Virus record (IMG/VR): IMGVR_UViG_3300021197_001635
Span: 62,001 to 126,000 of that record
Reading direction: 5' to 3' (one strand)
Source: a virus
Length of the DNA: 64,000 nucleotides
Part shown: positions 2,978-62,028 of the stretch, piece after piece
Layout: each line of letters begins with the position of its first letter
Numbering within the stretch: the first letter of the stretch is position 1
The notes under the pieces: generated by a model
Told to the model about the DNA's origin: nothing
Seen by the model: only the letters and a program-made list of their open reading frames with translations
The model's database searches: none
Translations under genes and position numbers: made by a program

Positions 2978-3556
2978 ATGGATTTACCAACACTTGGGTA
3001 TTATAGAACGCACAGCAATGCGATCCCACCCAAAATGAGCACAGCGGGGGCAGCCTGCTATGACCTTTCTGCACAACTGGTTGTTGAGGACAACAGTGGC
3101 AGAGTAACCGATTATAGAGAGGTCACAATTTTCACACCAGAAAATGAGACCTACACAGAGACCGCAACCTGCAGGGTTCACCCTACCGAGAATGGAAGAT
3201 TTACACCTTTCAGGGTAACAATCCCACCTAGACACAGAGCCATCATTCCAACTGGAATCATATTCGATATTCCAGACGGTTATTCTGTCAGACTGCACCC
3301 TAGGTCTGGTCTTTCCATCAAAAAGGGATTCATCGTCGCCAATTGCGAGGGTGTCATTGACGAGGACTACTTCCATGAGATCAAATCTTTGATGGTGAAC
3401 ACAAGCGAGATTCCAATCGTAGTCGAGCATGGTGATAGAATCGTTCAGGCAGAGATTGTCAAGACGGTACAGCACTACATTGTAGAGACCCACGTTGAGC
3501 CTTGCCAGAAGACAGATAGAGTGGGTGGTCTTGGTAGCACGGGAGTTAAAGTATGA
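2978..3556 (+). CDS. dut: dUTP diphosphatase (dUTPase)
   Basis: Trimeric dUTPase family: hydrolyses dUTP to dUMP and pyrophosphate, keeping uracil out of DNA and feeding ThyX, encoded about 8 kb downstream. Conserved motifs are visible in order: motif I STAGAACYDL near residue 21, the PRSGLSIKKG uracil-binding region near 108, GVIDEDYFHE near 124, HGDRIVQAEI near 149 and the C-terminal P-loop-like GGLGSTG near 183. At 192 residues it is about 40 longer than typical bacterial enzymes because of an insertion around residues 38-70. GGAGG lies eight bases before the start. First gene of the operon, overlapping the next by four bases (ATGA). Confidence 0.93.
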   Translation: MDLPTLGYYRTHSNAIPPKMSTAGAACYDLSAQLVVEDNSGRVTDYREVTIFTPENETYTETATCRVHPTENGRFTPFRVTIPPRHRAIIPTGIIFDIPDGYSVRLHPRSGLSIKKGFIVANCEGVIDEDYFHEIKSLMVNTSEIPIVVEHGDRIVQAEIVKTVQHYIVETHVEPCQKTDRVGGLGSTGVKV

Positions 3557-3942
3557 ACAGAGATGAATTAATACAGCATCATGTAGCATTGTGTGAAGAG
3601 GCTAGATCCCTCATGAGAGTCAAGAATCATGATTATGCAGGCAAGGACACTGATACCCCTTGGATGAACTTCCAGAGATCAGAGATAATGGGTCTTTGCA
3701 AGACCGAGCAAGCATTCATGGTTAGGATTCTGGACAAGATTTCAAGACTAATCACCTACACGACTAGCGGGGAACTGATGGTCAAAGGTGAGGGTGTTAA
3801 GGACTCAATAGTCGATATAATTAATTATATGGTCTTGTTCTCAGCATTCATAGAAGACGGCAATGTGAAGGACGAAGACCCTGACGGCTCGAAAGATACT
3901 GCTATGAATTATGACAACATCGAGAGAGAATCACTCGTATGA
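3553..3942 (+). CDS. MazG-like nucleotide pyrophosphohydrolase (candidate MazZ function)
   Basis: 129-residue all-alpha protein with the pattern of the MazG/DUF1599-type phage pyrophosphohydrolases: KNHDYAGKD..PWMNFQ near residues 24-40, then an acidic Mg-binding pair of helices with DKISRL near 60 and KDSIVDIINYM near 84. The family cleaves (d)NTPs to (d)NMP and pyrophosphate; in diaminopurine phages a MazG-like enzyme (MazZ) makes dGMP for PurZ. Substrate here is not readable from sequence; the role is inferred from the PurZ homologue at 53547. ATGA overlaps on both sides couple it to dUTPase and polymerase. Confidence 0.8.
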   Translation: MNRDELIQHHVALCEEARSLMRVKNHDYAGKDTDTPWMNFQRSEIMGLCKTEQAFMVRILDKISRLITYTTSGELMVKGEGVKDSIVDIINYMVLFSAFIEDGNVKDEDPDGSKDTAMNYDNIERESLV

Positions 3943-6461
3943 AAGAAATGTACTCCAATGTGGTTACCTATGGTAACACCCTGATGTACAGAGGATACGA
4001 CTCGGAAGGAAATAAAGTCGAGGATAGGGCGGAGTTTAATCCAGTCCTATATGTTCCTAGCAGCAAAGGCAAGGAATTCAAGACTCTGGAAGGCTCCCCT
4101 CTTGAAGAGATTGAGATGGGATGCATCAAGGAATATAGAGACTTTATCAAGCAATATGATGGTGTTGCTGGCATGACAGTATACGGGGATATTAATCTAG
4201 AGTGCCAGTACATAGGCAGAAGGTTCACCGACAAGAAGGTGGACTACGATTATGACCTGCTCAACGTGGTTAGCATCGATATTGAAACCACCTGCGAGTA
4301 CGGATTCCCCGATGTGGAGAACCCAAATGAAGAAGTTATTGCTATCACTATTCGGATTAATGATCAAACTTATAGTTACGGTCTGGGTGATTTCGACATT
4401 GATGGTGTTCATTGTCATCCTTATGCTAGGGATGAAGAGTTAGACCTAATCAATGATTTTCTGGGCAAGTGGGAAGAGATTTCACCAGACATCATCACTG
4501 GTTGGAATATCAGATTCTTCGATATGCCTTATCTTTATAACAGGATCAAGAAGATAGCAGGTCCCAAGCAGGCTAAGAGACTTAGTCCTTGGAAGATAGT
4601 CAAAGAGAAGACCATCCACAGACGAAATCGGGAGCAGAAGGTGTTGGATATTGTGGGTATTGCCACAATGGACTATTATGATCTATACCAGACTTTCACA
4701 TACACCAATCAAGAAAGCTACAGATTGGATCATATAGCATATGTGGAATTGGGTGAGCGGAAGTTGTCCTACTCAGAATTCGGCAGCATCAGAGAATTCT
4801 ATAAGAAGGATTTTCAGAAGTTCATGGAGTACAACGTGATAGACGTGGTACTGGTGGACAGACTGGAAGAGAAGTTGCGACTGATGGAACTAGCCGTCGC
4901 CTTGGCATATGCTGCAAAGGTCAATTTCATGGATGTCTTCAGTCAGGTGAAGATGTGGGACAGCATCATCTACCATCATCTTCATGATAAGAAAATAGCG
5001 GTTCCACCTAGAGTTGTAACCCAGAAGTCAGAGCAGTATGCTGGTGCTTATGTGAAAGACCCTATCGTGGGTATGCATGATTGGATCATGTCTTTCGACC
5101 TCAATTCCCTGTACCCCCATCTGATCATGCAGTATAATATCAGTCCAGAGACCAAGGTACACAATATTGATAACATTCATGCTAGGGATATTATTACACC
5201 CAATGGCATCTTGGACTGTTCTGAGCAGACCGAAAAATACCTAGAAGAATGGAGGAGAAGGGATCTGTCTATTGCTAGCAATGGGATCACCTTCACCAGA
5301 GACTTCCAAGGGTTCCTACCATCGATTATGGAAACGCTCTATGAAGAGAGGAAAATCGCTAAGAAGAAGATGATTCAAGCACAGCAAAAGCAGCAATCAT
5401 CCGACGACCCTCAGATCGCCAGAGATATATCCAAATACAAGAACGAGCAGCTGGTGAGAAAAGTGCAATTGAACTCCGCATATGGTGCTATTGGAAATCA
5501 ATACTGCCGATATTACGATGTGGATATGGCAGAGGCAGTCACAATATCTGGTCAACTTAGCATCAGGTGGATTGAGAGAGAATTGAATGCTCTTATGAAT
5601 AAGATATTGGGAACTGACGACGAGGACTACGTGGTCGCCATTGATACCGACTCTGTTTATATCAATGTGGGTGATCTAGTGAAGAAGATCGGTGGAGGTA
5701 AGAGCAAGCAAGAAGTGGTCGATCTATTGGATCAGTCTGCCAATGATATATTCTTACCTTTCATCGACAAAAAGTATATGGAGATGGCATCTAAAGTCAA
5801 TGCTTATCAGCAAAAGATGAAGATGGGGAGAGAGGTAATAGCAGATAAAGGAATCTGGACTGCTAAGAAGAGATATATCCTCAACGTCATAGACAATGAG
5901 GGCGTTAGATATGATAAGGCTAAGATCAAAGTGGTTGGACTGGAAACCACAAGGTCTTCTACCCCAGAGGCAGTCAGGAACCAGTTGAAAAGCATGATAA
6001 GACTTATATTGGATACTGATGAGGGCACGGTCATTAGAGAGATCGAGAAGGTGAGGGAGATATTTTATGATCTTGAACCCGAGCAAATAGCCTTCCCCAG
6101 AGGGGTGAAAGGACTTGGTAAGTATTCTGATGAAAACAATATATTTGCCAAGCACACCCCCGTCGCAGTCAAGGGTTCCCTCATTTACAATCATTACATA
6201 AATAAATTGGGTCTGGACAAGAAGTATGAGCTAATCAGGGACAATGATAAGGCGAAGTTCATATACCTTAAGGAGCCTAATCCAGTGAGAGACAAAGTTA
6301 TCACCTTTCCTAATGAATTACCAAAGGAATTAGAATTGGATGATTACATCAATTATGAATTACAGTTTGAGAAGTCTTTCCTAGATCCCTTAAAGGCTAT
6401 TTTAGAGGCTATTGGGTGGAAGTCAAGGAAAGAGAGTTCACTAGAAGGTTTGTTTGTTTGA
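3939..6461 (+). CDS. 43: Family B DNA polymerase, T4 gp43-like
   Basis: 840 residues, near the usual T4/cyanophage gp43 length. Exonuclease motifs are intact: Exo I SIDIETT (D114/E116), Exo II GWNIRFFDMPYL near 189, Exo III YNVIDVVLVD near 300. Polymerase motifs: motif A FDLNSLYPHLI near 386, motif B KVQLNSAYGAIGNQY near 508, motif C IDTDSVY near 568. Both proofreading and synthesis should therefore be active. It would be the replicative enzyme; if the phage makes dZTP, this family B enzyme would have to accept it, unlike the family A DpoZ polymerases described for Z-DNA siphoviruses. Start overlaps the MazG-like stop. Confidence 0.97.
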   Translation: MKEMYSNVVTYGNTLMYRGYDSEGNKVEDRAEFNPVLYVPSSKGKEFKTLEGSPLEEIEMGCIKEYRDFIKQYDGVAGMTVYGDINLECQYIGRRFTDKKVDYDYDLLNVVSIDIETTCEYGFPDVENPNEEVIAITIRINDQTYSYGLGDFDIDGVHCHPYARDEELDLINDFLGKWEEISPDIITGWNIRFFDMPYLYNRIKKIAGPKQAKRLSPWKIVKEKTIHRRNREQKVLDIVGIATMDYYDLYQTFTYTNQESYRLDHIAYVELGERKLSYSEFGSIREFYKKDFQKFMEYNVIDVVLVDRLEEKLRLMELAVALAYAAKVNFMDVFSQVKMWDSIIYHHLHDKKIAVPPRVVTQKSEQYAGAYVKDPIVGMHDWIMSFDLNSLYPHLIMQYNISPETKVHNIDNIHARDIITPNGILDCSEQTEKYLEEWRRRDLSIASNGITFTRDFQGFLPSIMETLYEERKIAKKKMIQAQQKQQSSDDPQIARDISKYKNEQLVRKVQLNSAYGAIGNQYCRYYDVDMAEAVTISGQLSIRWIERELNALMNKILGTDDEDYVVAIDTDSVYINVGDLVKKIGGGKSKQEVVDLLDQSANDIFLPFIDKKYMEMASKVNAYQQKMKMGREVIADKGIWTAKKRYILNVIDNEGVRYDKAKIKVVGLETTRSSTPEAVRNQLKSMIRLILDTDEGTVIREIEKVREIFYDLEPEQIAFPRGVKGLGKYSDENNIFAKHTPVAVKGSLIYNHYINKLGLDKKYELIRDNDKAKFIYLKEPNPVRDKVITFPNELPKELELDDYINYELQFEKSFLDPLKAILEAIGWKSRKESSLEGLFV

Positions 6462-9544: not shown

Positions 9545-10586
9545 GAAGTTTATCAATCTGGTATCACCAGAATTGCGTAATTTCAAATGGAAAAAAGAAA
9601 AGCTTGCCAACTGTTCTTGCCCAATATGCGGTGATAGTAAAAAGAACAGTAGGAAGGCTAGAGGTTATTTCTACGAGAAGCATGGACGATTCTTTTATAA
9701 ATGTCACAACTGTGACTTTTGGTGTAACATATATAGTTTTTTGAAAGAGATTTCTCCTGCACTTTGCAAAGAATACGCAATGGAGGGGTATAGAGAAAGA
9801 ATATCTCAGGGATTTATAAAAGAGAGGGTGAGGGTAGAACCAGAAGAGATGAAGTTTAATTTCAAGAAGCCTAAGAAGACTGTAATCAACAAGGATATGT
9901 TGAAGGATTGCGTTTGTCTAAACGATCTACCCGATGATCATGAGGCAGTCCAATTTGCCAATATCAGAATAATTCCCAAGCAACACTGGAACATCTTGTA
10001 TTATACAGAAGACTTTGGTGCTCTAATGAAGCACATGGATCCTGATTGCCTGAGTGTAGGAAGAGAGTCTAGACTGGTAATACCATTCTTCAACAAGAAG
10101 GGAGATGTGGTAGCAGTTCAGGGAAGATCCTTGAAAATGCAGGATGAATCTAATGCACGCAAGACCGTAAAATACTTAACAGTCAAGTCTGATAAGAGCA
10201 TAGACAGACTATGGTATGGACTTTGGAGGTGTGACACCAATAAGAAAGTGCACGTCGTTGAAGGTCCACTTGACAGTTTGTTCCTCAGCAATTCAGTCGC
10301 CATGGTTGGTGCGGGTGCTGTTGATAACATACCAGATAGGCTGGTTGACAAAGATTTGATTTTTGTGCTAGATAATGAACCAAGAAACAAGCAAATTGTT
10401 CAGTATAATCAGAATTTAATAGATCAAGGTAAGAAGGTGTGCATCTGGCCTAAGACGATCGTAGAGAAAGATATCAATGATATGGCATACAAGATGTCTA
10501 CGAGAAAAATTGAAAAAATCATTAACGAAAATTCTTTTAGTGGGTTGCAAGCGATAGCGAGACTCAGGGAATGGAGAAGAGCATGA
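9525..10586 (+). CDS. 61: DNA primase, T4 gp61-like
   Basis: 353 residues. N-terminal zinc-binding domain with CSCPICGDS near residue 31 and CHNCDFWC near 61, then a TOPRIM-type catalytic part: VVEGPLDSLFLSNS near 245 and IFVLDNEPRN near 284. It synthesises RNA primers on the lagging strand together with gp41 encoded just upstream. The length and order match cyanophage/T4 primases. It overlaps the glutamine synthetase start by four bases (ATGA). Confidence 0.92.
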   Translation: MSIIIDKKFINLVSPELRNFKWKKEKLANCSCPICGDSKKNSRKARGYFYEKHGRFFYKCHNCDFWCNIYSFLKEISPALCKEYAMEGYRERISQGFIKERVRVEPEEMKFNFKKPKKTVINKDMLKDCVCLNDLPDDHEAVQFANIRIIPKQHWNILYYTEDFGALMKHMDPDCLSVGRESRLVIPFFNKKGDVVAVQGRSLKMQDESNARKTVKYLTVKSDKSIDRLWYGLWRCDTNKKVHVVEGPLDSLFLSNSVAMVGAGAVDNIPDRLVDKDLIFVLDNEPRNKQIVQYNQNLIDQGKKVCIWPKTIVEKDINDMAYKMSTRKIEKIINENSFSGLQAIARLREWRRA

Positions 10587-11647
10587 GAACTAATTGTAAG
10601 ATGGAATACCTGTGGTTGGATGGATATGAGACACCCAACATCAGAAGCAAGACCCGATACATGACCTTGGAATCTGATGACGAATCTATGACAGTTGAAG
10701 ACATTCCAGAGTGGGGATTTGACGGTTCCAGCACTGAACAGGCATCTGGCAGCGATAGTGATTGCATCCTCAGACCAGTATCAGTATTCTTGAACCCTGT
10801 GGACTCGACATCTTTCCCCAATTCTTATCTGGTATTGTGTGAGGTGTTCAACAAAGATGGCACACCCCATGCATCCAATCACAGATCTTCTCTCAGAGAG
10901 ATTTGTGAGGGTACAGATGATTTAGAAATGTGGATGGGTATTGAGCAAGAATATACAGTGATGGATTCTGAAAAGGGTAGACCGTATGGGTGGCCTGATA
11001 TGGGTTATCCCCAGCCCCAAGGGCGATATTACTGCGGAGTTGGTGGTGATGTAGTTAAGATGAGAGATCTCGCCCATCAACATGCCATGTGTTGTCTGGA
11101 CTCAAAAATACCATTATGTGGAACCAATGCTGAGGTTATGCTATCTCAATGGGAATATCAGATAGGACCAGCATCCCCAATCAATGTATGCGATTTCTTA
11201 TGGGTGTCAAGATACATACTGGAGATTCTAGCAGAGAGTGTGGGTGCATCAATCAGTCTTGACCCTAAGTTAATCAAGGGTGATTGGAACGGGTCTGGAG
11301 CACACATCAACTTCTCCACCAAATTCATGAGAGAAGTTGGAGGCAAGGATTACATCAACGACGTCTGTGAGAGCCTAGGCAAGGCACACGAGGACCACAT
11401 CGTTAATTATGGTGTTGGCAACGAACAGAGACTCACTGGTACTCATGAGACCCAACATATCAATGAATTCACTTATGGGGAGTCCGACAGAGGTGCTAGT
11501 ATTAGGATCCCTCACTCTACTTCGGAAGAATACAGGGGATACCTAGAAGACAGAAGACCAGCATCCAATATGGACCCATACAAGGCAACAAAATGCTTGG
11601 TAGAAACGATGAAGAAGGTAGATTCTAAGGTAGAAATTGAAGTATGA
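10583..11647 (+). CDS. glnA: Glutamine synthetase, type II (eukaryote-like GSII)
   Basis: 354 residues, the length of GSII and much shorter than bacterial GSI. Hallmarks: EWGFDGSST near residue 46, metal-binding GIEQEYTV near 118, GRYYCGVGG near 142, QWEYQIGP near 187, GDWNGSGAHINFSTKFMR near 234 and TGTHET near 284. It makes glutamine from glutamate, ammonia and ATP in the cytoplasm. Start 10583 overlaps the primase stop and has GGAG nine bases upstream; the ATG at 10571 lacks a usable site. In this gene set glutamine would feed purine synthesis, including the GMP synthetase step that adds the 2-amino group. A rare phage metabolic gene. Confidence 0.94.
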   Translation: MRTNCKMEYLWLDGYETPNIRSKTRYMTLESDDESMTVEDIPEWGFDGSSTEQASGSDSDCILRPVSVFLNPVDSTSFPNSYLVLCEVFNKDGTPHASNHRSSLREICEGTDDLEMWMGIEQEYTVMDSEKGRPYGWPDMGYPQPQGRYYCGVGGDVVKMRDLAHQHAMCCLDSKIPLCGTNAEVMLSQWEYQIGPASPINVCDFLWVSRYILEILAESVGASISLDPKLIKGDWNGSGAHINFSTKFMREVGGKDYINDVCESLGKAHEDHIVNYGVGNEQRLTGTHETQHINEFTYGESDRGASIRIPHSTSEEYRGYLEDRRPASNMDPYKATKCLVETMKKVDSKVEIEV

Positions 11648-20285: not shown

Positions 20286-20359
20286 GCGTCTGTAGCTCAA
20301 ATGGACAGAGCAACGGCCTTCTAAGCCGTAGGTTGCAGGTTCGAGTCCTGCCAGACGTG
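20286..20359 (+). tRNA. tRNA-Arg (anticodon TCT)
   Basis: Complete cloverleaf: acceptor GCGTCTG/CAGACGT, D arm TAGCTC...GAGC, anticodon stem CGGCC with loop TTCTAAG, T arm with GGTTCGAGTCC. It reads AGA, the dominant arginine codon of the replication and head genes. Confidence 0.93.
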
Positions 20360-20385
20360 CTTCAAAATGTAAGACCCCAGTGATT

Positions 20386-20769
20386 ATGTCAATCAGCATT
20401 ACAAATAGATTTCTGAAGTACGCCGATACTGCCCTTGGGATATCGAGAGAGATATGTCGTTCCAAAAGGCATGTGAGTCTCATAACCACCAAGAAGGGTT
20501 CTGTGCTCGCATGCGGGACGAACCAGTTCCGAACGCATCCTCTGGCAAAGCAATATGGCTATCGATACGATGAGGTACATTCAGAATTGGATGCCCTCCT
20601 GAAGCTACCCAAGGGTGCTGATAGGAACGACCTCGTTCTCCTCAATTTTCGATTTAATAGATTCGGAGATATGAGGATCAGCAAGCCATGTTGTCTTTGT
20701 CTACCTTGGTGCAGGGTGGTATTCAGTGACATTTTTTATAGCACCGATGAAGGAATGATGAGGCTATGA
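20386..20769 (+). CDS. Cytidine/deoxycytidylate deaminase-fold protein
   Basis: 127 residues. Zinc-deaminase motifs are present: HSELDAL near residue 62 (His ligand and catalytic Glu) and KPCCLCLPWC near 102 (PCxxC). Upstream strand RHVSLITTKKGSVLACGTN fits the fold. This family deaminates (deoxy)cytidine compounds or bases; a dCMP-to-dUMP role feeding ThyX is possible but the substrate is not defined. Overlaps the next gene by four bases. Confidence 0.72.
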   Translation: MSISITNRFLKYADTALGISREICRSKRHVSLITTKKGSVLACGTNQFRTHPLAKQYGYRYDEVHSELDALLKLPKGADRNDLVLLNFRFNRFGDMRISKPCCLCLPWCRVVFSDIFYSTDEGMMRL

Positions 20770-21251
20770 ATATTTTTGCAGTACATAAAGATCCTAAGAT
20801 CTCAGCACGTATGCTTTGTGACAAGCACATCTGCAAGATGATCCTAGAGTCGGTGCAGATGCTATGCACTGCGTTTCCTGATGGTGACGCACCAAAGACT
20901 TGCGGTGCTAGCCATGTTAATCATCCTTGCTCACGTTGGGCAAGAGAGACATCCAGCAACTATGATTGGTTGTCTGAGCATGTCATCACCCTGTGTGATG
21001 AATATACTAAGCGGTATGGCAAGGTCCATGCTTGGGATGATGCGGTTAAATGGTTGTATGATAACAACCCTCTCCCCAAGGGAGACATTACCCAACACCC
21101 CCAATGCATGCCTGCCTACTGTAAGGTAGATGGAGACCCCATCGAGGCATACCGAAATTATTATGTCCACGAGAAAGCCTACATGGCAAAGTGGAAGAAC
21201 AGTGATACTCCTAGGTGGTATCTCACCGCAATCGAGGAAGTGAAGAAGTGA
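20766..21251 (+). CDS. Conserved phage protein (MNIFxxxKDPKxxARxxCDKHxxKMxLES family)
   Basis: 161 residues. The N-terminus MNIFAVHKDPKISARMLCDKH with KMILESVQMLCTAF belongs to a widespread phage family of unknown activity. Further conserved aromatic residues: NHPCSRWARETSSNYDWL near 55, YTKRYGKVHAW near 79, and a Trp/Tyr-rich end. Conserved His and Asp/Glu suggest an enzyme. Co-transcribed with the deaminase-fold gene; roles in nucleotide metabolism are only inferred. Confidence 0.7.
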   Translation: MNIFAVHKDPKISARMLCDKHICKMILESVQMLCTAFPDGDAPKTCGASHVNHPCSRWARETSSNYDWLSEHVITLCDEYTKRYGKVHAWDDAVKWLYDNNPLPKGDITQHPQCMPAYCKVDGDPIEAYRNYYVHEKAYMAKWKNSDTPRWYLTAIEEVKK

Positions 21252-21418
21252 TTGATTTTCTTGTAAAAGCACTACCCCTTATATCTGCCATCCTTTACAT
21301 GGTAGTCGGCATTGGATACGGGATTAGGAAAGAGTGGGCATGGTGTCTGGTGTGGATGTCTTACGCCCTTGCCAATGTTGGACTCGTACTGGCGGCTATC
21401 GCAGGAGAGGCTAAATGA
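21248..21418 (+). CDS. Small two-helix membrane protein
   Basis: 56 residues from GTG 21248, overlapping the previous stop (GTGA) with GAGGAAG seven bases upstream. Two hydrophobic helices, ALPLISAILYMVVGIGYGI and CLVWMSYALANVGLVLAAI, separated by the charged turn RKEW. Holin-like size and topology, but no other support. Confidence 0.6.
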   Translation: MIDFLVKALPLISAILYMVVGIGYGIRKEWAWCLVWMSYALANVGLVLAAIAGEAK

Positions 21419-21759
21419 CTTACGTTTCCGTGCGTGGTGGATACGAGAGAGGCGAAATCGCCGTGAAGGTGGCAGAGTGGTGTGTTGAGCATTTTGACAT
21501 TGAACCGAAGAGGGTGGACATCCAAGTCAACCATGCATACAGGGATTGCTGGGGGGCCTGTGATGAGGTGTCTAGAGGAGAATACTCGATAATTGTAGTC
21601 GCTAGGCAGTCTCTAAGAGACTTTATTGCCACTGTCACACACGAGATGGTGCATGTCAAGCAGTGGGAGACTGGCAGATGGTCTGGTGACGGTGAAAAGG
21701 AAGCAGAGAGATTGCAGTACAAGCTTGCTGACAAGATCTGGAAAGAAGATGTGATTTGA
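21415..21759 (+). CDS. SprT-like zinc metallopeptidase-type protein
   Basis: 114 residues. THEMVHVKQWETG near residue 74 gives HExxH, followed by a downstream acidic helix with GEKEAERLQY near 91 that can supply the third ligand. This is the layout of small SprT/IrrE-type zincins in phages. Possible roles include processing of DNA-bound or regulatory proteins; no substrate can be named. ATGA overlap with the membrane protein. Confidence 0.68.
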   Translation: MTYVSVRGGYERGEIAVKVAEWCVEHFDIEPKRVDIQVNHAYRDCWGACDEVSRGEYSIIVVARQSLRDFIATVTHEMVHVKQWETGRWSGDGEKEAERLQYKLADKIWKEDVI

Positions 21760-21766
21760 CAACTAT

Positions 21767-21839
21767 GCGCCTGTAGCTCAATTGGTAGAGCGTTAGATTT
21801 CCAATCTAAATGTTGACGGTTCGAGTCCGTCCAGGCGCT
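21767..21839 (+). tRNA. tRNA-Gly (anticodon TCC)
   Basis: Acceptor GCGCCTG/CAGGCGC, D arm TAGCTCAATTGGTAGAGC, anticodon stem TTAGA/TCTAA with loop TTTCCAA, T arm ACGGTTCGAGTCCGT. It reads GGA, common in these genes. Seven bases after the SprT-like gene. Confidence 0.93.
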
Positions 21840-21843
21840 TTAA

Positions 21844-21916
21844 GCGAGTGTAGCCCAACGGCAGAGGCAGTGGACTTAAAATCCATACAGTGTGGGTTCG
21901 AATCCCACCACTCGTA
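21844..21916 (+). tRNA. tRNA-Leu-like (anticodon TAA), short variable arm
   Basis: Acceptor GCGAGTG/CACTCGT, anticodon loop CTTAAAA (anticodon TAA), T arm GTGGGTTCGAATCCCAC. It reads TTA. Unlike classical tRNA-Leu it lacks the long variable arm, so the charging identity should be treated with care. Confidence 0.85.

Positions 21917-22192: not shown

Positions 22193-22215
<23 letters not shown>
21934..22215 (+). CDS. Hypothetical protein upstream of IMP dehydrogenase
   Basis: 93 residues from ATG 21934 (GAGGAAG upstream). Starts with alternating strands (KNKIVLEITLESEAYVDEF) and contains CPIDMMKMIAGQCRLP. Overlaps the IMP dehydrogenase start by 23 bases, so the two are translated together. 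No family recognised. Confidence 0.62.
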
Positions 22216-24296
<2,081 letters not shown>

Positions 24297-37906: not shown

Positions 37907-38026
37907 ATGGACGGATTTTTAGGAACTATTTGGTGGTCGGTACTCATGTTCGTAGCAGGAGCACTAATTGGAACTCCTCTTTGGGGATGGGTTAAGAGTT
38001 TCATGCCTTGGAACAATAAGGACTGA
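37907..38026 (+). CDS. 39-residue membrane protein
   Basis: Short gene with AAAGGAGAA eight bases upstream. A single hydrophobic helix WWSVLMFVAGALIGTPLWGWV followed by a short Trp/Lys tail. It begins 23 bases after the scaffold-like gene and ends two bases before the next. Too short to assign; small-holin or assembly-factor roles are only possibilities. Confidence 0.6.
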   Translation: MDGFLGTIWWSVLMFVAGALIGTPLWGWVKSFMPWNNKD

Positions 38027-38027
38027 T

Positions 38028-40163
38028 ATGGTGACAAGAGGCGGCTCGTATATTAGCGAAGCAAATGGTAAGGGAATGGTATTTACCTTCGGTAGATTCA
38101 ACCCTCCCCATGGTGGTCATGAATTATTGATCAATAAGGTAATATCTACTGCTAAAAAATATGGTCACGAGCATTCGATATATGCCAGTCAGTCTCAAGA
38201 TTCAAACAAAAACCCCTTGGGGTATAATGATAAAATCAAATATATGAAGGCAGCCTTTAAACAGGCTAATGTTGTTAAAGACCCCAAGATGAAAAATCCT
38301 TTTTTCGTAGCGAAGAAGCTAAGCGATGAAGGTTACAAGCACGTAATTCTAGTAGTAGGTGGGGACCGTGTAAAAGATCTTGAGAGAGAAATCAGGAAAT
38401 ACATTGGTCACAAGGATCCAAACAAATCATTCAACTTCGACACTTTTAGTGTGGTGAGTGCTGGGAAAAGAGATCCAGATTCCGATGATGTCACTGGTAT
38501 GTCCGCTTCTAAGATGCGATCACTAGCATCTGATGGAGACTTTGATGGATTTAGCAAAGGCGTTCCTTCCTCAATGTCCTCATCCAATACCAGAAAAATG
38601 TATGATTCCATAAGAAAATCTATGGGTGTCAGAGAAGACATATCTAGTCTATTTGACCAACTGGATGTAGGGATATCAGAAGAAGAACTGAATAGGCAGG
38701 CAATCAATAGATTGGACCTAGACTCTTTGCAACTCCTAGGAATCATGGAACAGGTAGAAGAAGAGCCTACTGTAATAATACTTTCTATCTTCGATGAAGA
38801 GGGAGAGTACAGCGATACCACAGACAAATTGGTGAAATCTTGTGACAAGATTGGGTTAACTAACTATGTGGTGTCGGTAGAAGACGCTTATGTGGTAGAC
38901 GAAGACATGGATGATAACATCATTACTATCCATAACTACAACGGCAACGGCAAGAAACTAAATCTGAATACTAGTAACACGGTGTGTTTCCCCAGAGGAA
39001 GTGTGCTGAAGAACTATTCTGGTATAGGTATACTCAGCATAATACAAGACACTGATATATTCTCTGTTAACAAACTAAGTAGCATGGAATTAGCACAGAA
39101 CAAGTTTGCTACTGCTATAGCACTGGAAAGAGCTAGCATTAACTCACCAAGGACGGCATTGGTTGCCAACGAGGATGCGATAGAGATAGCATTAGAGAAG
39201 ATAGGTGGAAAATTCCCCGTAGTAGTCAAGACAATCACTGGAGCAGAAGGAATTGGTGTTTCACTAGTAGAATCAAGAGAGTCGTTGACTGGTGTTCTGC
39301 AGTCCTTGTGGAAATTCGAAGCAGAAGTCATCATACAGGAATATTTCAAGATAGACTATGATATCAGATCCATAGTCCTCGACGGCAAGGTTATTGCCAG
39401 TGCTAAGAGATTGAAAGGGCAAGGAGATTTTAGGACTAACAAATCTCTAGGAAATGAAACAGAACCTTATGTCTTGTCAGAAGAAGAAATAGAAATAGTT
39501 GAAAAGGCTGCCAGCGTCATTAAATGCTATTGGTGTGGTGTAGACCACATGGTGGTGGATGGAGAAGACGGTGAGGAATATAAGGTATTGGAAGTGAACG
39601 GTTCGCCTGGAAGCGGAGCAGAACCATTTCACTCATACTTTGGTGATGGTGGAGAGGTAAGCGGTCAAGGCATGATAGATTATGTAGTGGACTATGTCTC
39701 AGATAGAGAAAACTGGGTGTCATCTACCACCGAAATCGGAGCGGTAGAAGAGATAGAGATAATAGGAATGGGCAAGGCAGATGCCAGAATAGACACGGGC
39801 AACGAGTCTTATAATGTCCTTCATGTGGATAGTGCCGAGTACAGCACCGAAGACAAAGATATGGTCAGATTTTCCACCATGGGTGAAACCAAGCAACTAC
39901 CAGTAGAAGAGGTGGTGACCATAAATACGGGAAGCGGCAACAAAGAAAAGAGGATGGTGGTCAAGCTTGACCTGAAGATAGGAAGCAAGACCATCAAAAA
40001 TGTCAAGTTCTCTCTTGCAGATAGAGAAGACAATGACTATCCAATACTAATAGGTAAGGTATTTTTAAAGAATCACCACTTTTCAGTGGACGTAGCCAAA
40101 GAGCACGTGATGAAGGAATCTTTAGAAACACTAAATAATAAGTTCACCAATCTCGCTATTTGA
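38028..40163 (+). CDS. Tri-domain fusion: HxGH nucleotidyltransferase, ATP-grasp ligase, retropepsin-like protease
   Basis: 711 residues from ATG 38028. Domain 1 (about 15-200) has TFGRFNPPHGGHELLI with HxGH and the C-terminal GMSASKMR of cytidylyltransferase-fold enzymes. A linker with ISEEELNRQAINR follows. Domain 2 (about 330-550) is a RimK-like ATP-grasp: FPVVVKTITGAEGIGVSLVE, VIIQEYFKIDYDIRSIVL and EVNGSPGSG. Domain 3 (about 575-700) is a RimK-associated aspartic protease type: KADARIDTGNES (Asp588) and ADREDNDYPILIGKVFLKNH. It probably adds and perhaps removes amino-acid tails on a protein. The combination is unusual; order of action unknown. Confidence 0.8.
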   Translation: MVTRGGSYISEANGKGMVFTFGRFNPPHGGHELLINKVISTAKKYGHEHSIYASQSQDSNKNPLGYNDKIKYMKAAFKQANVVKDPKMKNPFFVAKKLSDEGYKHVILVVGGDRVKDLEREIRKYIGHKDPNKSFNFDTFSVVSAGKRDPDSDDVTGMSASKMRSLASDGDFDGFSKGVPSSMSSSNTRKMYDSIRKSMGVREDISSLFDQLDVGISEEELNRQAINRLDLDSLQLLGIMEQVEEEPTVIILSIFDEEGEYSDTTDKLVKSCDKIGLTNYVVSVEDAYVVDEDMDDNIITIHNYNGNGKKLNLNTSNTVCFPRGSVLKNYSGIGILSIIQDTDIFSVNKLSSMELAQNKFATAIALERASINSPRTALVANEDAIEIALEKIGGKFPVVVKTITGAEGIGVSLVESRESLTGVLQSLWKFEAEVIIQEYFKIDYDIRSIVLDGKVIASAKRLKGQGDFRTNKSLGNETEPYVLSEEEIEIVEKAASVIKCYWCGVDHMVVDGEDGEEYKVLEVNGSPGSGAEPFHSYFGDGGEVSGQGMIDYVVDYVSDRENWVSSTTEIGAVEEIEIIGMGKADARIDTGNESYNVLHVDSAEYSTEDKDMVRFSTMGETKQLPVEEVVTINTGSGNKEKRMVVKLDLKIGSKTIKNVKFSLADREDNDYPILIGKVFLKNHHFSVDVAKEHVMKESLETLNNKFTNLAI

Positions 40164-49183: not shown

Positions 49184-49256
49184 GGGCTGGTAGCTCAGCG
49201 GTTAGAGCACCCGACTCATAATCGGTTAGTCGTCGGTTCGAATCCGACCCAGCCTA
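49184..49256 (+). tRNA. tRNA-Met (anticodon CAT)
   Basis: Acceptor GGGCTGG/CCAGCCT, D arm TAGCTCAGCGGTTAGAGC, anticodon stem CCGA/TCGG with loop CTCATAA, T arm GTCGGTTCGAATCCGAC. Could be elongator Met or, if C34 is modified to lysidine, Ile2 reading ATA. Confidence 0.93.
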
Positions 49257-51357: not shown

Positions 51358-51430
51358 GGGAACGTAGCTCAGTCGGTAGAGCATCCGCCTTTTAAGCGGG
51401 TGGTCGTGAGTTCGAGTCTCACCGTTCCCA
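51358..51430 (+). tRNA. tRNA-Lys (anticodon TTT)
   Basis: Acceptor GGGAACG/CGTTCCC, D arm TAGCTCAGTCGGTAGAGC, anticodon stem CCGC/GCGG with loop CTTTTAA, T arm GTGAGTTCGAGTCTCAC. It reads AAA. A GGCGTTC/GAACGCC hairpin follows at 51443-51459. Confidence 0.94.
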
Positions 51431-51501
51431 CTTTTTGTGCGTGGCGTTCAGAACGCCACGTTAGGCCACAACGACTTCTATAGTACTTGACAAAAGAATA
51501 C

Positions 51502-53546: not shown

Positions 53547-54620
53547 ATGATTGAATCTGGTAAAGTGAATTTTCTAATCGATGGTCAGTGGGGAAGCACT
53601 GGCAAGGGCAAACTTGCTGGTTACATGTACAGCAAGCATGACAACCTGAGAATGGCAATTAGCGATAATATGCCAAATGCGGGTCACACCTTCACAAGAG
53701 ACGGCAAGAATTTCATCTTCAAGGCACTTCCCACTGGTGTTCTTTTCGATAATGTGACGTCGCTCATCGGTCCACAAGCAGTAATGGGCGAAGAACAGTT
53801 CCAATACGAGATGGAAATGGTGAAAAACGAAATCGGTCATTACCCCAAGGTAATTATCCACCCGATGGCGACGGTTGTCACCGCCAGTGACAAAGATGCT
53901 GAGGCAGGAATCGTCAGCAAGATGGCAAGCACTGGTCAGGGATCATGTTCTGCTACAGTTAAGAAGATGTGGAGACGAGGAGAGGCAAATCTTGCCAAGA
54001 ACAGCAAGGTATTCGGAGAGTACGTAGGAGATACGCACAATTTCTTGCATATGGGACTTAAGAAAGGTGATGCAGCACTTTCAGAAGGCAGTCAAGGTTT
54101 TGATCTTTCTATGAACTGCGGACACGCCTATCCACACACCACATCACGCGATTGCCTGATCGGCAGAATGATGGACAATGCTGGTTGTCCAGTTAAATCA
54201 GTGGGCAGCATCATCGCTTGTCTGAGGACACTGCCAATCCGAGTGGGTAGCACTGAGAACACCAGTGGTCCTTATTATGATGATCAGAACGAGATAGACT
54301 GGAAGATGGTATCTGAAATGTGCGGTCAAGACGTAGAAGAGAGAACCACAGTCACCCAGAGAGTGCGTAGGGTCTTCACCTTCTCCGAAGAGCAGACCAG
54401 AAAATTCTGCGAGTATGTACGTCCAGACTATGCATTCCTGAACTTCGTCAATTATTACAAGGACGAGCAGGAGAGAACGTCAGCAGTAGAATCTGTTGCC
54501 TCCATCTTGACAGAGTATGGTTGTGATCTTACACTGCTTGGGACAGGTGCAGAACTGGAGGATATGGTAGTCACCGATAATGAAACCATCCTCAACAAGC
54601 AGGAAACCTTATTCGCATGA
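53547..54620 (+). CDS. purZ: PurZ-like N6-succino-2-amino-dAMP synthetase (PurA homologue)
   Basis: 357 residues, shorter than bacterial PurA (about 430) and the length reported for phage PurZ. The adenylosuccinate-synthetase frame is clear: GQWGSTGKGK (13-22), NAGHT (44-48), STGQG (128-132), EGSQGFDLSMNCG (180-192), LPIRVGSTENTSGPY (229-243). In PurA the first motif is GDEGKGK with a catalytic Asp; here Asp is Ser17 and Glu is Thr18, the change reported for PurZ enzymes, which condense dGMP with aspartate. The GTP-specifying TKLD is also replaced (FLNFVNYY), fitting use of ATP/dATP. AGGAG lies ten bases upstream; ATGA coupling to a kinase gene. A PurZ0-like intermediate is an alternative. 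Confidence 0.87.
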   Translation: MIESGKVNFLIDGQWGSTGKGKLAGYMYSKHDNLRMAISDNMPNAGHTFTRDGKNFIFKALPTGVLFDNVTSLIGPQAVMGEEQFQYEMEMVKNEIGHYPKVIIHPMATVVTASDKDAEAGIVSKMASTGQGSCSATVKKMWRRGEANLAKNSKVFGEYVGDTHNFLHMGLKKGDAALSEGSQGFDLSMNCGHAYPHTTSRDCLIGRMMDNAGCPVKSVGSIIACLRTLPIRVGSTENTSGPYYDDQNEIDWKMVSEMCGQDVEERTTVTQRVRRVFTFSEEQTRKFCEYVRPDYAFLNFVNYYKDEQERTSAVESVASILTEYGCDLTLLGTGAELEDMVVTDNETILNKQETLFA

Positions 54621-61999: not shown

Positions 62000-62028
62000 T
62001 TGACGGAATCCAGCCTCCGTGGTATAAT
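62000..62028 (+). promoter_or_regulatory. Sigma70-like promoter for gp32
   Basis: TTGACG, 17 bases ending CCGTGG, TATAAT. One-base -35 variant of the phage promoter family. The mRNA leader to the ATG at 62077 is about 42 bases and carries AAAGGAAA. Confidence 0.85.

Follow-up and report, generated by a model that had tools for sequence, protein, structure and literature searches.

The stretch of DNA analyzed here (64,000 nucleotides, referred to below as the window) covers positions 62001 to 126000 of G000, a 136,012-bp linear virus record. At the locus under study, two genes are joined by a four-base overlap between the stop codon of purZ and the ATG of a kinase gene:

53547..54620, plus strand, PurZ (N6-succino-2-amino-2'-deoxyadenylate synthase), ATG start, 357 aa
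54617..55174, plus strand, adenylate-kinase-like NMP kinase, candidate dZMP kinase, with a P-loop, a DGFPR motif and weak ADK family matches

The initial annotation had described the first product as PurZ-like rather than PurA, on the grounds that the catalytic Asp of PurA was replaced by Ser and that the GTP-reading TKLD motif was lost. Both replacements were recovered. The P-loop reads GQWGSTGKGK, in which S17 stands where PurA has its catalytic Asp and T18 where it has Glu; N302 is aligned to the Asp of the E. coli TKLD motif, so that the GTP-reading Asp is Asn here. In a phmmer search against solved structures, the best PDB match was 6FKO (phiVC8 PurZ; E = 2.3e-56), followed by 7ODX (S-2L PurZ; 2.5e-30) and 5K7X (archaeal PurA; 2e-24). 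The protein was also matched by PHROG 1211 (PurZ; E = 8e-63). The best-scoring NCBIfam model was the PurZ model NF038379, whose 215 bits are nearly double the 115 bits of the PurA model TIGR00184 and lie under the curated NF038379 cut-off of 300 bits, which is a threshold for annotation rather than a criterion of function. The AlphaFold2 model of the protein (pLDDT 90) retrieved phiVC8 and S-2L PurZ as its top five Foldseek matches, before any PurA or PurZ0, and its TM score against phiVC8 PurZ was 0.84-0.86 by query length.

A set of 106 PurZ, PurZ0 and PurA proteins was used for residue alignment and for a maximum likelihood tree (IQ-TREE, LG+G4, 1000 UFBoot). The catalytic position is Ser in 98 of the 99 PurZ-group sequences (the remaining one has a gap) and Asp in all three PurA-type outgroups. 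Every position that divides PurZ from PurA is of the PurZ type in the window protein (S17, T267, N302, R227, I231 and S240). A previous study singles out S23, T273 and Q308 of S-2L PurZ and N297 of phiVC8 PurZ (PMC8342488); the window protein matches the pocket positions named there, with T267 and N302 as the equivalents of T273 and Q308/N297. In the tree, it falls deep inside PurZ of the phiVC8/S-2L type (branch support, 99), beside the PurZ proteins of large phages and apart from both PurZ0 and PurA. A PurZ0 identity was rejected on the basis of this separate branch and of the motif, which is GSTGKG and not GSEAKG. Judged by sequence and predicted structure together, the protein is confirmed as a true PurZ, and the first claim of the initial annotation stands; a position inside true PurA, which that annotation had named as refuting it, was not seen in the tree. 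It could in principle be a PurA variant that converts IMP to adenylosuccinate for AMP synthesis, given that the fold and the partner enzyme PurB are common to both and that the same phage manipulates IMP supply. However, S17 and N302 replace the catalytic and GTP-reading Asp residues, the tree and the structure comparison place the protein with PurZ, and a phage IMP dehydrogenase (IMPDH) would drain IMP from PurA; we regard such a variant as very improbable. The purZ gene is intact in three long contigs (G000, G001 and G004), and its pN/pS between G000 and G001 is 0.10, indicating strong purifying selection.

The adjoining kinase was modeled with a pLDDT of 89.6, and Foldseek returned adenylate and UMP/CMP kinases with a probability of 1.00 and a modest TM score of about 0.58. 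A homologue lies directly after PurZ in every close relative that covers this spot; in much of the sister group, which consists of large phages with a family A polymerase (PolA), the gene after PurZ encodes a P-loop kinase. From its position and predicted fold, we consider it a candidate dZMP kinase. In these large PolA phages (L056:6787-7880, L060:7279-8253 and L064:3024-4138), the genes after PurZ encode a P-loop kinase and a dUTPase-like protein, whose motif III is IDxGY like that of the DutZ-type sequences compared, and a helicase-like gene often comes next; this order is possibly a further layout of Z clusters. Another record has, close to PurZ and a P-loop kinase, an NDT-like protein (PF05014; L065:12099-12539) that is possibly related to DmtZ.

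The window also carries a DNA polymerase and a ribonucleotide reductase:

3939..6461, plus strand, family B DNA polymerase (PolB) of the T4 gp43 type, PHROG 262, 1012 bits
13071..15008, plus strand, adenosylcobalamin-dependent ribonucleotide reductase, a general phage function in deoxy-pool supply

The exonuclease (DIET) and polymerase (SLYPH, NSAYGA and DTDS) motifs of gp43 are intact, and its nearest named relatives, at 48-49% identity, are those of T4-like cyanophages. G000 further encodes the gp45 clamp, UvsX/UvsY, the gp20 portal, the gp23 major head protein, a tail sheath, a DnaB-like replicative helicase and a gp32-like SSB. This gene content confirms, at the level of sequence, that the source phage is T4-like, in agreement with the earlier description of a family B gp43 in a T4-like setting. 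Several other features of the window were recorded. A glutamine synthetase of the GlnII type (10571-11647) lies in the replication region and is present too in a relative lacking PurZ (G064). Many proteins encoded between 27320 and 42140 start with MKSFKQ or MKNFKQ and resemble a repeated family sharing a short leader, while the gene at 37968-40163 encodes a 731-aa fusion of cytidylyltransferase-like, RimK-like ATP-grasp and putative zinc protease domains. Five tRNA genes (Arg-TCT, Gly-TCC, Leu-TAA, Met-CAT and Lys-TTT) are located within 20286-21916, 49184-49256 and 51358-51431.

G000 is a single metagenome contig, which raises the question of whether a Z phage and a T4-like phage were joined during assembly. 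This explanation is largely refuted and hardly credible, as the three long contigs are separate IMG/VR records that have the same PurZ neighborhood together with T4-type genes, their PurZ proteins are 83-92% identical to that of the window, and their ends differ. The combination of PurZ, T4-like genes and PolB is found again in G001 (136,240 bp) and G004 (126,210 bp). G001 carries the whole accompanying gene set described below, and G004 carries the full set minus the deaminase; since this contig stops about 1 kb past the IMPDH gene, the deaminase gene may have been cut off by the contig end. Among 58 records, PolB was found in 7, PolA in 40, and both in none. Six of the PolB records have PurZ (G000, G001, G004, G030, G031 and G039), and the seventh (LR756501) has a PurA-type protein. 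G030 is a weaker case: the PolB match on this 67-kb contig has a low score and is broken into pieces. Because PolB occurs at four separate positions in the PurZ tree, the pairing of PolB with PurZ seems, from these sequences, to have arisen more than once. The family B replisome context described in the initial annotation is supported, with PolB and PurZ recurring in independent contigs in which no PolA was found. In one of these, G039 (L110; 119,931 bp), PurZ is sister to the proteins of phiVC8 and Vibrio phage 69E27.1, and no DatZ was found.

Two further genes that accompany PurZ lie elsewhere on the source record:

G000:35846-37306, outside the window, PurB (adenylosuccinate lyase) with intact active-site motifs, best PDB match human ADSL
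G000:43543-43944, NDT-like protein between gp45 and gp44, PHROG 355, 6e-27

To place these genes, 19 PolB relatives without PurZ were searched, five of which were compared gene by gene. PurB was absent from all 19; of the 22 PolB-lineage records, the only 3 that have it are the three that carry PurZ. PurZ, the kinase, PurB and the NDT-like gene were each absent from all five relatives compared gene by gene; these four genes are linked to the PurZ-bearing lineage. Every member of the lineage is a metagenome contig whose completeness is not stated, most of the contigs compared are fragments, and the lack of a gene in a fragment counts for little. The stronger comparison, because both flanks are present, is that of the gp47-gp46 region: PurB sits between gp47 and gp46 in G000, G001 and G004, and these two genes are directly adjacent in the PurZ-lacking relatives G068 (154 kb) and G064 (91 kb). 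DmtZ is an NDT-family dAMP hydrolase/transferase with Tyr6, Asp12, Asn77 and Glu103. The NDT-like protein has counterparts of the Tyr and Glu, and Asp12 aligns near an Arg.

Four more genes of purine and deoxynucleotide metabolism were identified in the window:

22193..23290, plus strand, IMP dehydrogenase (GuaB) without a CBS insert, Pfam IMPDH 417 bits, motifs GSICTTR and DRYxQ...PEGIEGxVPYKG
23238..24296, plus strand, adenosine/adenine deaminase family member (amidohydrolase), nearest match PA0148 (adenine deaminase)
3553..3942, plus strand, MazG-superfamily-like protein, weak DUF1599 match, PHROG 1485 (function unknown)
2978..3556, plus strand, dUTPase, motif III IDEDY

The IMPDH and deaminase genes overlap. 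NCBIfam names the latter product adenosine deaminase; we lean toward adenine deaminase, because its closest solved structure is PA0148, for which adenine deaminase activity is reported (Goble et al. 2011, cited in PMC6281700). The IMPDH is a candidate supplier of guanylate for PurZ, and the MazG-like protein possibly performs the step from dGTP to dGMP. The MazG-like gene and the dUTPase gene were considered as counterparts of MazZ, a MazG-type hydrolase specific for dGTP, and of DutZ, the dUTPase homologue with which Z phages hydrolyze dATP/dGTP, and set aside; both are present in several of the five PurZ-lacking relatives and are for that reason no evidence for Z. Motif III of the dUTPase is IDEDY, versus IDAGY in the two DutZ-type sequences compared, a motif that by itself fixes no substrate.

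IMPDH may likewise be a general auxiliary gene, because it occurs in one fragment (G071) among the 19 PurZ-lacking PolB relatives searched and because IMPDH-family matches are found in 74 named-phage records. Extended to PurB and the deaminase, this argument would leave a Z pathway of PurZ and the kinase only, with the other enzymes as ordinary auxiliary purine genes, and the scatter of the genes over the genome, with no single operon, is consistent with it. We nevertheless consider this explanation unlikely: among the PolB relatives, PurB and PurZ occur in exactly the same records; annotated named-phage PurB genes occur only in groups sampled here with PurZ0; and PurB, a deaminase and IMPDH are found together again in a distant PurZ branch. 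On the contig in question, G032 (L094; 185,177 bp), PurZ, a P-loop kinase and a glutamine synthetase are encoded side by side, and IMPDH, PurB and an adenosine-deaminase-like protein are encoded elsewhere. Of 50,697 named-phage records, 28 were matched by PurB and 9 by the deaminase, and several of these records resemble bacterial contigs. Apart from the MaAM05 record, the annotated PurB matches come from phages of Streptomyces and Gordonia; two of these phages, Hiyaa and Ghobes, were verified as PurZ0 carriers. The purB of Microcystis phage MaAM05 (MW495066.1; L265) was not counted as a phage gene, since it stands among bacterial housekeeping genes; lepA, ftsH, proS and metG surround it, and the stretch resembles a host chromosome. 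A very large contig, G049 (L128; 395,473 bp), has PurZ together with PurB-family and deaminase-family genes.

Profiles PF12917 and PF01966, for HD hydrolases and for DatZ, a YfbR-like dATP triphosphohydrolase, gave no match in G000, G001 or G004, while PF12917 recovered its positive controls in phiVC8, S-2L and Bm1; PF00476 (family A polymerase) likewise gave no match in the three contigs. Eight scattered gp43 positions divide the PurZ-bearing phages from their PurZ-lacking relatives, none of them convincing. With no DatZ, HD hydrolase or DpoZ found, partial replacement of A is therefore a serious rival to full replacement. According to this explanation, dZTP and dATP compete at an unselective gp43 and the genome is a mixture of A and Z, which could still blunt restriction enzymes. 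Besides the lack of obvious adaptation in gp43, previous studies point in the same direction, as the unselective PrimPol of S-2L needs DatZ for full replacement (PMC8342488, PMC8775771). On the other hand, the deaminase and the NDT-like gene could cut the A pool by another route, and the Z-selectivity of a family B polymerase cannot be read from its sequence. We hold a mixed genome to be quite possible.

In the pathway that we propose, the chemistry of PurZ, PurB and IMPDH follows from knowledge of their families, and the remaining assignments are conditional. The adenine-deaminase-type enzyme and IMPDH would shift purine flux away from A and toward G, raising the supply of dGMP; ribonucleotide reductase would make the deoxy form, and the MazG-like protein would perhaps yield dGMP. 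PurZ would then join aspartate to dGMP, with ATP, to form dSMP, which the phage PurB would split into dZMP and fumarate. Phosphorylation of dZMP to dZDP would probably be carried out by the phage itself through its NMP kinase, a host enzyme would complete dZTP, and gp43 with the gp45 clamp would place Z opposite T. We infer that Z is present in the phage DNA, in full or in part replacement of A, and the source phage, with its true PurZ, is likely to be a Z (2-aminoadenine) phage whose replisome is of a new type. Complete replacement of A is the least certain step, because neither a dATPase nor a Z-selective polymerase was identified. We tentatively suggest a T4-type phage whose replisome is of family B, whose pathway is nearly self-contained and which fully or largely swaps A for Z, with Z selected by PolB or favored by a dATP-lowering route other than DatZ/DutZ, in a pairing of PolB and PurZ that arose several times. 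If this is true, the phage dZMP kinase would be a new activity. Z-DNA would then reach one of the phage replisomes that are understood best, in a T4-type lineage that combines PolB with a PurB of its own and a kinase next to PurZ. For the laboratory production of Z-DNA, such a lineage would supply a dZMP kinase candidate and a family B polymerase that may tolerate or select Z; the exclusion of A without DatZ or DpoZ would become directly testable.

The initial annotation had characterized described Z phages as mostly siphoviruses with a family A DpoZ. This needs correction in two respects, as podoviruses are included too and S-2L has PrimPol rather than DpoZ. Previous studies describe Z phages with a PolA-type DpoZ or, in S-2L, with PrimPol (PMC8342488, PMC8599892, PMC8775771, PMC12884076). 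Host enzymes are reported to turn dSMP into dZTP (PMC8342488, PMC12884076), and a bacterial PurB is named for the Z pathway (PMC12783734). None of the open-access journal papers searched was found to mention the pairing of PolB and PurZ, or to assign a PurB or a dZMP kinase of phage origin to the Z pathway.

Among known systems, phiVC8 (purZ, mazZ-2, datZ and dpoZ) shares with the window phage the PurZ fold, the catalytic Ser and the substrate-pocket residues, at 37% identity (best PDB matches, 6FKO/6TNH). Its genome is 39 kb, with a family A DpoZ, DatZ, and reliance on host PurB and kinases, whereas the 136-kb, T4-like G000 encodes PolB together with a PurB and a kinase of its own and yielded no DatZ match. 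Cyanophage S-2L (purZ-mazZ-datZ and PrimPol) also has PurZ without DpoZ; however, it replicates with PrimPol and relies on DatZ, whereas the window phage has gp43 and no DatZ was found. The PurZ0 actinobacterial phages (Ghobes, Hiyaa and the Temper16/Wayne type) resemble the window phage in that some carry PurB (Ghobes gp36 and Hiyaa gp76) and in their NDT-like and dUTPase-like enzymes. They differ in having the other synthase branch (GSEAKG rather than the PurZ of the window), a PolA-type DpoZ-1, and DutZ/DmtZ. The large PolA phages of IMG/VR (L056-L074, up to 263 kb) form sister branches in the PurZ tree, and in most of them a P-loop kinase gene comes after PurZ, but their polymerase is of family A, and dUTPase-like and helicase genes, not a T4 replisome, often follow PurZ. 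Conversely, the T4-like Synechococcus phages Sf-CH5 and S-SSM4 have the closest named PolB, but neither is among the PurZ matches listed. Burkholderia phage Bm1 is contractile-tailed with PurZ, although it is 67 kb and has PolA and DatZ. Because Bm1 is on record with PurZ and PolA, a contractile tail is not new for PurZ phages; what is new here is the PolB/T4 replisome together with the added enzymes.
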